This document shows positions 25,650-57,509 of a stretch of DNA of 64,000 nt, one piece after another (positions within the stretch are counted from its first letter, which is position 1; each line of letters starts with the position of its first letter). The DNA is from Hyphomicrobiaceae bacterium (lineage in GTDB: Bacteria; Pseudomonadota; Alphaproteobacteria; Rhizobiales; Ancalomicrobiaceae). The notes under the pieces are model-generated. The model saw only the letters and a list, made by a program, of their open reading frames with translations, was not told the origin of the DNA and did no database searches. The position numbers and the translations under genes were made by a program. Location: the NCBI GenBank assembly GCA_016793065.1, contig JAEULV010000034.1, positions 1-64,000 on the forward strand, given 5' to 3'.

Positions 25650-26852
25650 ATGGCGTCAGACGCAAGCGGATCGCGACGATCCGACGATTTAGCGCCGAAA
25701 GCGGCGTTCTACAACGACCCGAAGATACGCGGGTACTTCTATCAAGCGGTCGTCGTGCTGCTGCTCGCTTGGGGCATCTGGTCGATCGTCTCCAACACGA
25801 TCGAGAACCTGCAGACCCGCAATATCGCTCAGGGGTTTGGATTCCTTGATGTTACCGCCGGGTTCGACCTGTCGGTGGCGTTGATCGACTATCCCAAGAA
25901 CGCCACCTATGGCCGCGCGATCCTGGTCGGCATCGTCAATACGCTGGTCGTCGCCGTCATCGGCATCTTCTTCGCCACGCTGCTCGGCTTCATCATCGGT
26001 GTCGCCCGGTTGTCGAAGAATTTCGTGATCCAGCGGCTGGCGACCGGCTATGTCGAGACGATCCGCAACCTGCCGTTGCTGCTGCAGCTGTTCTTCTGGT
26101 ATTTCGGCGTCCTGTCGTTCCTGCCGAACCCGCGCGACTCGCTGAAGCCGATGGGCGAGGCGATCTTCATCAACAACCGCGGCTTCTTTGTGCCGGAGAT
26201 CGTGCTGGCGCCGGGCATTGCCCAGGGGATGCTGATCGCGGCGGCGATCGCCGTCGCGGCGGCCGTGCTGGTGCGCAACTGGGCGAAGCGGCGCCAGGAC
26301 CTGACCGGTAAGCCGTTTCCGGTCGGCCTGACGGCCGCCGGGCTGGTCCTCGGGCTGCCGCTTCTGGTGTTCGTCGTCAGCGGGGCGGCGATCCAGCTCG
26401 TGTATCCGGTCAAGGGGGCGTTCAACGTCACCGGGGCGCGGGTGGTGCCGGAATTCATCGCGCTGCTGCTGGCGTTGACCAGCTACACCGCCGCCTTCAT
26501 CGCCGAGATCGTGCGCGCCGGCATCATGGCGGTGTCGCACGGTCAGACCGAGGCGGCTCGATCGCTGGGGTTGTCGCCGTCGCATACGTTGCGGCTGGTG
26601 GTGATCCCGCAGGCGATGCGGGTGATCATTCCGCCGCTGACGTCGCAATATCTCAACCTCACCAAGAACTCGTCGCTGGCGGTCGCGGTCGGCTATCCCG
26701 ACCTCGTCTATATCGGCGGAACGGTGCTGAACCAGACCGGTCAATCGGTCGAGGTGGTGGCGATCTGGATGTTGATCTATCTCACCATTTCGGTCGCGAC
26801 CTCGGCTTTCATGAACTGGTACAATCGCCGCGTGGCGATCGTCGAGCGGTGA
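25650..26852 (+). CDS. aapQ: General L-amino acid ABC transporter, permease
   Basis: Inner-membrane permease of 400 residues, longer than most HisMQ-type permeases because of inserted N-terminal and central hydrophobic segments, which is characteristic of AapQ. The EAA loop that docks to the ATPase is EAARSLGLSPSHTLRLVVIP in the C-terminal third. I start at ATG 25650 (MASDASG); longer in-frame extensions run through the hairpin region. aapM follows after ten bases. Confidence 0.95.
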   Translation: MASDASGSRRSDDLAPKAAFYNDPKIRGYFYQAVVVLLLAWGIWSIVSNTIENLQTRNIAQGFGFLDVTAGFDLSVALIDYPKNATYGRAILVGIVNTLVVAVIGIFFATLLGFIIGVARLSKNFVIQRLATGYVETIRNLPLLLQLFFWYFGVLSFLPNPRDSLKPMGEAIFINNRGFFVPEIVLAPGIAQGMLIAAAIAVAAAVLVRNWAKRRQDLTGKPFPVGLTAAGLVLGLPLLVFVVSGAAIQLVYPVKGAFNVTGARVVPEFIALLLALTSYTAAFIAEIVRAGIMAVSHGQTEAARSLGLSPSHTLRLVVIPQAMRVIIPPLTSQYLNLTKNSSLAVAVGYPDLVYIGGTVLNQTGQSVEVVAIWMLIYLTISVATSAFMNWYNRRVAIVER

Positions 26853-55054: not shown

Positions 55055-56185
55055 TCAGATCACGTAGGCCTTCAGCGGCGGGAAGCCATTGAAGGCCACC
55101 GACGCATAGGTCGTGGTGTAGGCGCCCGTGCCTTCGATCAGCACGTCGTCGCCGATCGACAGCGAAACCGGCAGCATGTACGGGGTCTTCTCGTACATCA
55201 CGTCGGCGGAATCGCAGGTCGGGCCGGCCAGCACGCATGGCACCAGGTGCTCGTCGCCATGCTCGGTGCTGATCGGGTAGCGGATCGCCTCGTCCATCGT
55301 CTCGGCGAGACCGCCGAACTTGCCGATGTCGAGATAGACCCAGCGGACGTCGTCGTCATCATGCTTCTTCGAGATCAGCACGACTTCCGACTTGATGACG
55401 CCGGCATTGCCGACCATGCCGCGACCCGGCTCGATGATGGTCTCGGGAACCTGATTGCCGAAGTGCTTCAGCAGCGAGTCCCAGATGGCGTTGCCGTAGG
55501 TTTCGACTTTCGGCACGTCCTTCAGGTACTTGGTCGGGAAGCCGCCGCCGAGGTTGACCATCTTCAGTTGGATGCCGCGCTCGGCCATCTCGCGGAAGAT
55601 ATGCGAGGCGGAGGCGAGCGCGCCGTCCCAGGCGCCGGTGTTGCCCTGCTGCGAGCCGACATGGAACGACACGCCATAGGCCTCGAGACCGACCCGGTGC
55701 GCATGTTCCAGCACCATCGGCGCCATGTCCGGATCGCAGCCGAACTTGCGCGACAGCGGCCATTCGGCGCCGGCGCCGTCCGACAGGATGCGGCAGAACA
55801 CCCGCGAACCCGGGGCCGAACGGGCGATCTTGTCAACTTCGGCGACGCAATCGACCGCATAGAGCCGCACGCCCAGCTCGAAGGCCCGCGCCACGTCGCG
55901 CTCCTTCTTGATGGTGTTGCCATAGGAGATGCGGTCGGCCTTGGCGCCGGTCGCCAGCACCATCTCGATTTCGCCGACCGAGGCGCAATCGAACGACGAG
56001 CCCATCTCGGCGAGAAGGGTCAGGATCTCCGGCGCCGGATTGGCCTTCACCGCGTAATAGACGCGGGTGTCCGGCAGCGAGCGGGCGAAGGTGGTGTAGT
56101 TGTCGCGCACGACATCGAGGTCCATGACGAGGCAGGGGCCTTCCGGACGGCGGGTGCGCAGGAATTCGCGAATACGGTCAGTCAT
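55055..56185 (-). CDS. odc: Ornithine/lysine decarboxylase, PLP fold type III
   Basis: A eukaryote-like decarboxylase of 376 residues giving putrescine (or cadaverine). The PLP Lys is K47 in YYAVKANP. The phosphate-binding GGGFPTKY and EPGRGMVG are present, as is the catalytic Cys near residue 324 in GPTCDSADVM, contributed across the dimer. Rhizobial enzymes of this type accept ornithine and sometimes lysine. A 5' leader of about 490 nt precedes it. It heads the odc-GNAT-TPR-hss series. Confidence 0.94.
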   Translation of the reverse strand: MTDRIREFLRTRRPEGPCLVMDLDVVRDNYTTFARSLPDTRVYYAVKANPAPEILTLLAEMGSSFDCASVGEIEMVLATGAKADRISYGNTIKKERDVARAFELGVRLYAVDCVAEVDKIARSAPGSRVFCRILSDGAGAEWPLSRKFGCDPDMAPMVLEHAHRVGLEAYGVSFHVGSQQGNTGAWDGALASASHIFREMAERGIQLKMVNLGGGFPTKYLKDVPKVETYGNAIWDSLLKHFGNQVPETIIEPGRGMVGNAGVIKSEVVLISKKHDDDDVRWVYLDIGKFGGLAETMDEAIRYPISTEHGDEHLVPCVLAGPTCDSADVMYEKTPYMLPVSLSIGDDVLIEGTGAYTTTYASVAFNGFPPLKAYVI

Positions 56186-56673
56186 GGTCGGGTCCCCCGA
56201 TAAGTTCCGCGGTTGTCACCAAATTCCGGGCTCTTTCCGGTCGCGCACCGCGATGGAGACGGTGTCGCGCCCGCGAAGGCGCCTCGGATGACCGATCGCA
56301 ATGGAAGAGACGCTTTCGTCCCGGAAACCGCTTGACACGGCGACCAGGGGAATGCGGCCTTCACGCGACCGGTACGCAAACGCGCTGCCTCGGCGGACCG
56401 ACACGAGGAAATCGACGGAAAAGGCCGCGCGAGCGGACAAGGCCATACGATTTCGAACGCGCAAGCGCCGAAACTGCCGATTGGGCCGTCGAACCAGAGC
56501 TTGGACCCCAGGAGCGACGGTTGGTGCCATGGATTGGAACGGGATTCCCGAACCGCACTGCCGGCAAGAGTAGTTGCCTCTTCAGTAACCCCGGGCGATG
56601 GAGACCCGGCAGAGACCAAAAAAGCCCGCTACGTCGTTGCTTCAAGCCACGTCCCCCGCTTGAGAGCGAGGTG
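56186..56673 (-). ncRNA. Long odc 5' leader; possible speF-type regulatory RNA
   Basis: The leader between the -10 element at 56680-56685 and odc has no conserved gene. On the transcript, CTGCCGG (56606-56612) can pair with CCGGCAG (56558-56564) around an inner AAGAG/CTCTT hairpin. The overlapping CCGGG (56605-56609) can instead pair with CCCGG (56591-56595). These alternatives exclude each other, as in attenuators. An Arg-rich open frame (56216-56530 on the minus strand) runs through it to within 30 bases of odc. The alphaproteobacterial speF motif is known from this position, but I cannot confirm a match by eye. Confidence 0.4.
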
Positions 56674-56679
56674 CGCCGG

Positions 56680-56685
56680 TTTATA
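56680..56685 (-). promoter_or_regulatory. Candidate -10 element of the odc transcript
   Basis: TATAAA on the minus strand, in the most AT-rich spot of the region; no convincing -35 is seen 17-18 bp upstream. Transcription would start near 56673. Confidence 0.3.
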
Positions 56686-56689
56686 ATCT

Positions 56690-57435
56690 CCGGCTGCCGG
56701 TTGCCCTGACGAAACTTCCGGGCCTCTTGTCCCGGTCCGGTCGCTGCGGGGGTGTCTCGCTTCCGGTCGCGCTTGACGCTTCGACCATCGGCGGCCCCTG
56801 GGACCGGATTGTTCGCCAACCGGCACGCGGCCACAGGCACGTGCGAAATTGGGCAAGCGGTGATGTATGGATTATCGGGGTCATATTCAAGCGTTTTTTT
56901 GAGGTTCGGCGCGATTTTTCCCCACAGCCGCCATTGGCGCGATCCCACGGGATTTCAACGGTTTTCGCGCCCGGTCGCACAAGGTCCGCGAAACCGATTT
57001 TGCGGCGTGATCCATATTTGTCGGGGTGCCGGATCTGGGAGGGGACGAAGCAGTCCTCATCCTGCCTTGCGACGCTGTGGCGAACGCGCGCCGGGCTGGA
57101 GCCGGCTTTGCCCACACGGTCGCGTCGGTCTTCGCTCGGCCATCCGAAGCTCTCGTGAGCGATCCTGCCTCCGGCCCGTCGCACCACCGCTCGGGACACG
57201 ATCGGCCGGGGCGTGAATCAGTGCCTTGGGTCAGTCGCATATATGACTGACGCACGCGTTCAGGACTCGCGCGGCCATCGCCCGCGAAGGCGTTGTTTCG
57301 CTTGCCGTTTGTTTTTCGGTGCCTTGCGGGTTTTCGGTCGCTGCCCTGTGTCGCGGTTCCGTCCCGGGGGAGGGATGGCGGACAAGAAAGCAGGGAGTCA
57401 GGCTGTCAGTGATTTAAAGTATTGAAAAAGCAAGG
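56690..57435. other. Noncoding region between odc leader and tRNA-Cys
   Basis: I see no supportable gene here. One clear element is GTCAGTC-N8-GACTGAC (57230-57251), a perfect operator-like dyad. Confidence 0.4.
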
Positions 57436-57509
57436 TGGAGGCCTCGTCCGGATTCGAACCGGAGTACACGGATTTGCAGTCCGCTGCGTAACCACTCCGC
57501 CACGAGGCC
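57436..57509 (-). tRNA. tRNA-Cys (GCA)
   Basis: Read on the minus strand, the 74-nt sequence folds as a cloverleaf: acceptor GGCCTCG with CGAGGCC, anticodon loop CTGCAAA with anticodon GCA, T-loop GGTTCGAATCC, discriminator T and an encoded CCA end. Confidence 0.95.

Follow-up and report, generated by a model that had tools for sequence, protein, structure and literature searches.

We report that the leader of the ornithine decarboxylase gene odc in the window (the whole stretch of 64,000 nucleotides that was analysed, from a Hyphomicrobiaceae bacterium) carries, in addition to the speF element as defined in Rfam, a second hairpin, HII, whose loop region has the same nine letters, UCUCCAUCG, as that of the first hairpin of the element, P1. 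Comparison of related leaders makes it very probable that the leader is built of P1, a core of P2 to P4, and HII, and we tentatively propose that a single trans-acting factor would bind both of these similar hairpins. The features on which this reading is based are the following:

55055..56185, minus strand: odc, ornithine decarboxylase-type PLP enzyme of 376 aa (Pfam PF02784 and PF00278, both above cut-off)
56193..56198, minus strand: Shine-Dalgarno-like GGGGGA, 7 nt 5' of the odc start codon (read in the sequence)
56216..56530, minus strand: Arg-rich open frame of 104 aa, judged not to be a gene (open reading frame list and comparison with relatives)
56246..56264, minus strand: HII, second hairpin, stem CACCG/CGGUG, loop region UCUCCAUCG at 56259-56251 (model R1, covariation and fold)
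56436..56611, minus strand: RF00518 match along the whole model (1-153), the speF leader element (E 8.1e-10; 51.6 bits against a gathering score of 37)
56526..56537, minus strand: conserved block CCAAUCCAUGGC, in which the AUG at 56530-56528 begins the 104-aa frame (alignment A1)
56536..56554, minus strand: P4, core hairpin GG..CGGG / CCCG..CC (pairing compared with shuffled sequences)
56563..56578, minus strand: P2, GGC(AA) with (UU)GCC (alignment and fold; GGC/GCC invariant)
56591..56609, minus strand: P1, first hairpin, stem CCGGG/CCCGG, loop region UCUCCAUCG at 56604-56596 (RF00518 alignment and covariation)
56620..56854, minus strand: RF02347 match, the alphar45 sRNA, with a U-run at its end (50 bits against a gathering score of 40)

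The nearest solved relatives of the odc product in a PDB comparison are lysine/ornithine decarboxylases, e.g. 5gjm. A sequence-only reading of this DNA had described a long leader in front of the gene and suggested that it might hold the speF motif, and both points are borne out: the speF element begins at 56611 and odc at 56185 on the minus strand, which gives a leader of about 430 nt, and the RF00518 covariance model, the search proposed there as a check, matches well above its gathering score. That the mechanism of speF is unsettled, as the same reading had remarked, agrees with the passages available from PMC1273637 and PMC11477304. The gene downstream of the match is an ornithine decarboxylase of the COG0019 type (Pfam and PDB matches), and an odc relative adjoins speF in all 22 genomes with a match among the 41 searched, the genome of the window included. 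Within the family of the window 14 of 15 genomes have a speF match; under filters stricter than those of the family search, as also applied to the 41 genomes, speF was found in 145 of 297 genomes drawn evenly from the order (118 over the cut-off) and in 15 of 385 drawn from the class (13 over the cut-off). The odc leader is a member of the speF family, and we infer that it acts in cis to regulate odc. As in the Rfam element (RF00518; Corbino et al. 2005), it lies upstream of odc and has P1, P2 and the core letters, the P1 stem and the invariant core letters being present in alignment A1 (31 leaders, with the window first). It differs in the place of HII, which in the window is some 170 nt past the end of the RF00518 match; the printed consensus, from which a few positions are missing in print, shows no UCCA-loop hairpin like HII downstream of P1, and where the leader is short, e.g. 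in L145, the match extends across HII. Upstream of the unit formed by alphar45, speF and odc there is a tRNA gene (57439-57509, minus strand), which we read as Cys from its GCA anticodon.

Leaders were fetched from 199 loci (L001-L199), 119 of them chosen by a match to RF00518 and 80 by the odc protein alone. An odc start was present in 196 (L128, L198 and L199 were dropped), and after removal of L046, which was too short, and of six exact repeats 189 leaders remained; counts among them come from related sequences that are not independent, and the statistics ignore phylogeny. HII, which goes beyond the features listed in the sequence-only reading, has a stem probability of 1.0 in the fold of the window. 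It was selected without regard to pairing, by the motif [TC][CT][TC]CCA at 55-96 nt before the odc start, which occurs exactly once in 114 of the 189 leaders, several times in 4 and not at all in 71. Among the 108 distinct sequences, pairs 1 to 5 of the flanks are formed in 94, 96, 96, 83 and 71% compared with 94, 88, 52, 42 and 43% after shuffling (pair 1 hardly varies and is hence uninformative), and the nine-nucleotide loop region is the best choice, since the mean over the five pairs, 88% with this loop, is only 56, 26, 31 and 46% with loops of 7, 8, 10 and 11 nucleotides, respectively. With at least three pairs required and a wider range allowed, this strict HII is present in 140 of the 189 leaders, 113 of which have it 56-95 nt before the odc start, and in 52 of the 74 distinct loci that were chosen by the odc protein alone. 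Moreover, in alignment A2, i.e. 85 thinned sequences picked for at least three HII pairs, the covariation score was 0.698 versus 0.192 for shuffled and at most 0.205 for slid alignments; by the number of pairs with double changes the real and the shuffled alignments are not separated (7 versus 6.1, a count that 136 of 500 shuffles also attained). A relaxed hairpin with a YCCA loop was found in 29 of the 49 leaders that lack the strict HII, compared with 3.3 expected from mononucleotide shuffles, and the other 20, including all seven of L121-L127, have no HII even under these relaxed rules.

Corbino et al. (2005), in the part of the paper available, noted that the start codon is preceded by other conserved blocks, to which no structure could be assigned, and the main-text passages of open-licence papers on the speF element describe no HII-like structure; as far as this literature shows, HII and the shared loop appear to be undescribed. 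In L007, L009, L013, L014, L015, L016 and L019 (family-1) an extra block that is missing in the window and ends in CGGGGAUGACCGAACGCCG lies between HII and odc, with HII 155-233 nt from odc. The block holds GGAGGAAACGCCCG, or a sequence close to it, in all of these except L019, and the three scanned (L013, L016 and L019) gave no Rfam match up to E 0.5.

Covariation of the stems had likewise been proposed as a check in the sequence-only reading, and covarying stems were found, namely P1, P4 and HII; two of the grounds for refutation named there, a missing covariance-model match and missing covariation, therefore do not apply. Specifically, P1 has six pairs in A1 that are each changed on both sides, and 82% of the 102 distinct sequences compared for P4 form its fifth pair, mostly as C-G or G-C, versus 45% after shuffling, pairs 3 and 4 reaching 64% and 44% only. 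The stems of P1 and HII are unrelated, and the 7-nt loops that they present read N-U-C-C-A-N-N in P1 and N-Y-C-C-A-N-N in HII; in the HII loop region of the window a U.G would close the 7-nt loop CUCCAUC. Positions 1 and 9 of the loop region covary as well, being paired in 93% versus 84% in HII and in 83% versus 62% in P1 (0 of 2000 shuffles in each case). Both loop searches required CCA as well as three outer pairs. The preceding base is U in all 92 P1 loops, where the search left it free, and in 98 of 104 HII loops, where the search was limited to Y.

The likeness of the two hairpins was also recovered with a covariance model, R1, that was built from 85 HII rows, the window's own row among them, and no P1 rows. 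An unfiltered scan of the window with R1 gave HII as the first match (28.9 bits, 56242-56268) and P1 as the second (23.9 bits), and the same two hairpins are the top two G000 rows in the genome search, in which 150 of 1979 candidates were scored there. A further search with R1 covered 68 of the 199 loci and gave 63 matches with E no higher than 0.3; by the coordinates, as we read them, 49 of these lie at HII (many of the loci having given rows to the model), 12 at P1 and 2 elsewhere. The loops of P1 and HII are no more alike within than between species over the nine positions (112 loci, p 0.33), and a weak likeness within species is seen at positions 7-8 (112 loci, p 0.03). The third-best R1 match in the window (22 bits, 25780-25806, plus strand) lies in a coding frame that by eye looks permease-like, and is taken as chance.

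P1 and HII thus flank the conserved core and repeat one loop on unrelated stems, an arrangement that points to two sites for one reader. As the likeliest explanation we suggest that a single trans-acting factor, most probably an RNA-binding protein, would read the loop at both hairpins, that its binding might change the translation or the decay of the odc mRNA, and that the core P2-P4 could serve as a further contact or as a folding module. As to the mechanism, binding of such a factor, its being a protein and the step that it controls are possible rather than probable, and we put them forward with more reserve than the two hairpins themselves.

Other readings have to be weighed against this one. 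P2 pairs GGCAA (56578-56574) with UUGCC (56567-56563) and overlaps the AAGAG/CUCUU register, and the GGC at 56528-56526, in the block CCAAUCCAUGGC, is a possible alternative partner for the GCC in P2. The probability of P2 when folding is left unconstrained is 0.55-0.73, compared with 0 for the AUGGCA/UUGCC alternative and 0.01 for the P3 pairing. Among the 31 aligned leaders no change is seen in the P2 segments or in either GGC, and the AAGAG register is nearly invariant; AAGAG forms four or five pairs with the five bases 5' of GCC in 44 of 58 distinct sequences, and RNAalifold adds UGC/GCA instead (columns 77-79 with 110-112). Mutually exclusive pairings, as claimed in the sequence-only reading, can therefore be drawn in the window, but their letters are nearly fixed, so the comparison cannot choose between them and covariation neither supports nor rejects a switch. 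A metabolite riboswitch, in which the core P2-P4 would bind a small molecule, e.g. homospermidine or norspermidine, and the P2 alternatives together with HII would form the expression platform, is consistent with the dense invariant positions of the core, with the covarying pairs of P4 and with the alternative partners of the P2 segments. We nevertheless consider it somewhat unlikely, given that these alternatives are beyond the reach of covariation and that six compounds tested in 2005 showed no binding (homospermidine is not named among them in the passages available from PMC1273637). The loop of HII might also act directly on the ribosome site, CUCCA pairing as an anti-Shine-Dalgarno sequence with the odc site (U-GGAG) and P1 competing for it. 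By its letters the loop consensus could pair with sites of the GGAG type, and the Shine-Dalgarno core has a U in front of it in 88 of 184 odc leaders versus 45 of 187 other open frames at the same loci (related sequences, not independent) and in all 7 leaders with a CCCCA loop. However, the base in question is U in 48% only, and the pairing of loop and site is no better within species than between permuted species (p 0.53 and 0.18 for the loop and 0.05 for stem plus loop; 0.70 and 0.39, respectively, after thinning of relatives), so that the loop-to-Shine-Dalgarno pairing, for which no species-matched signal was seen, is quite improbable. A control stretch in this comparison, the 12 nt after HII (+17 to +29 from the loop start), gave a matched pairing with the ribosome site at p 0.002, or 0.02 after thinning (112 loci), hinting that this stretch may form a closing stem with the ribosome site.

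Hairpins that resemble tRNA are known from the thrS leader of E. coli, in which arms are bound by the dimeric ThrRS. The present leader is similar in having more than one tRNA-like hairpin, and differs in the synthetase binding, which is a known property of the thrS leader. P1 and HII could both imitate the anticodon arm of tRNA-Trp and be recognised by tryptophanyl-tRNA synthetase or by a tRNA-modifying enzyme: the geometry agrees (a 7-nt loop with C-C-A at positions 3-5 and U before it), and some loops read CUCCAAA, which is also the loop sequence in tRNA-Trp genes from five relatives (the tRNA-Trp pattern had no match in the genome of the window, which is incomplete). Of the anticodon-arm features, U33 (92 of 92 P1, 98 of 104 HII) and the closing pair (83% in P1, 93% in HII) are common, CCA was required by the search, and A37 is found in 63 of 92 P1 loops but in only 22 of 104 HII loops. 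Such a variable position 37 speaks against true mimicry, as do the C at position 33 in 6 of 104 HII loops and the want of an evident metabolic reason, and we regard mimicry as very improbable; the same holds for the idea that a protein which normally reads tRNA-Trp, or another dimeric reader of anticodon loops, would bind both hairpins and couple putrescine synthesis to the state of translation. A different kind of control is suggested by alphar45, which lies 8 nt upstream of the speF match. We take S. meliloti SmrC45 to be alphar45; according to the available parts of PMC2780559 and PMC2848018 it is a 181 nt RNA with a mapped start and an assigned terminator that binds Hfq, and its locus is labelled speF in the parts seen of PMC2573895 and PMC7143759. 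In the window alphar45, a member of RF02347 at 50 versus 40 bits, is directly upstream of speF, as it is in Bartonella according to the passages available from PMC7717549, but it is a separate element, its match ending before speF. The odc mRNA might then arise by read-through of the alphar45 terminator, with alphar45 as the terminated product and speF acting on the read-through RNA only. In favour of such attenuation, 180 of the 189 leaders have CGCACGTGCC of the alphar45 5' part no more than 900 nt upstream, most of the 12 leaders inspected showing letters that look promoter-like by eye, and AAGCAACGA near the alphar45 3' end is present in 182, a U-run being found in 150 and GGTCTC then in 134 of these 150. 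The only promoter comparison made across leaders, that of the -35-like hexamer before speF, showed no conserved separate speF promoter, the hexamer varying among 182 leaders (CTTAAA in 96, CTTGAA in 67). The independent expression reported for Bartonella and S. meliloti (PMC7717549, in the same passages) argues against attenuation, which we judge unlikely. On the other strand, within alphar45, there is a promoter-like TTGAGA-16-TATAAT (56660-56687, plus strand; 11 of 12 letters, where 0.1 such sites are expected), the TATAAT of which is absent in L015.

The sequence-only reading had itself proposed a hybrid of an RNA switch and an Arg-rich leader peptide. In enterobacteria the speF leader peptide senses ornithine, and it resembles the present leader in that it controls an ornithine decarboxylase gene; it differs in its conserved reading frame, which this leader lacks, and the enterobacterial enzyme is of another fold family than the PF02784 enzyme here. 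An ATG frame of 104 codons with many Arg does exist at 56216-56530, but not beyond what chance would give: this GC-rich stretch is also overlapped, on either strand, by other frames of 125-195 aa. The position of its ATG in the block (CCAAUC....GGC) reads AAG in 58, ACG in 28 and ATG in 27 of the 125 leaders, among the 189, in which the pattern finds the block. The 27 leaders with ATG have a median open length of 57 codons, and the two remaining frames have medians of 44 and 55 (frames running off the locus being coded as -1), five of the 27 frames stop after 2-17 codons, and the translations have little in common beyond MA, save among close relatives. Neither of the two frames tested, of 104 and 145 aa, has a Pfam match. 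The ATG belongs to a landmark of the RNA and the frame is not conserved; the peptide is therefore best taken as a by-product of the GC-rich sequence. On these grounds, i.e. an ATG in 27 of 125 leaders, an unconserved sequence and frame and open lengths like those of other frames, we rejected the leader peptide, and the hybrid, whose start codon is unconserved and whose frame is lost in relatives, is hardly credible. The words 'speF' and 'SMc02983' are likewise absent from the main text, as searched by word, of a paper on ribosome profiling in S. meliloti (PMC10117765); PMC6386406, in the part available, concerns Salmonella speF.

Returning to one factor with two sites at P1 and HII, the genomes were searched with R1 (E up to 1, at most 150 scored candidates per genome), which gave 3-12 matches in each of 13 family genomes, with 21 searched, and at least 111 rows in total; the 22-bit match at 25780 of the window is absent from this search. 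No regulon of HII-like hairpins emerged from the 26 of 111 rows that were inspected, and any factor would therefore serve odc alone or read the motif more loosely. Twenty of the inspected rows lie each within a stop-free frame of 341-808 codons and the remaining six, all of them G000 rows, overlap open frames of at least 120 codons, which, given the GC-rich DNA, suggests that the inspected matches elsewhere would be coding sequence.

Since 2005 the speF element has counted as an orphan among regulatory RNAs, with tested metabolites that did not bind and downstream blocks to which no structure was given. HII, with its P1-like loop, offers a defined target for mutation and pull-down, and constructs that end at the RF00518 boundary would omit it in species such as this bacterium. 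The leader with HII is relevant to how rhizobia and their relatives control the synthesis of putrescine and homospermidine. Finally, an identical HII-like 27-mer is present in L217 and L218 (G002 and G008, which belong to one genus), and in L218 a frame of 226 aa starts 172 nt downstream of it.
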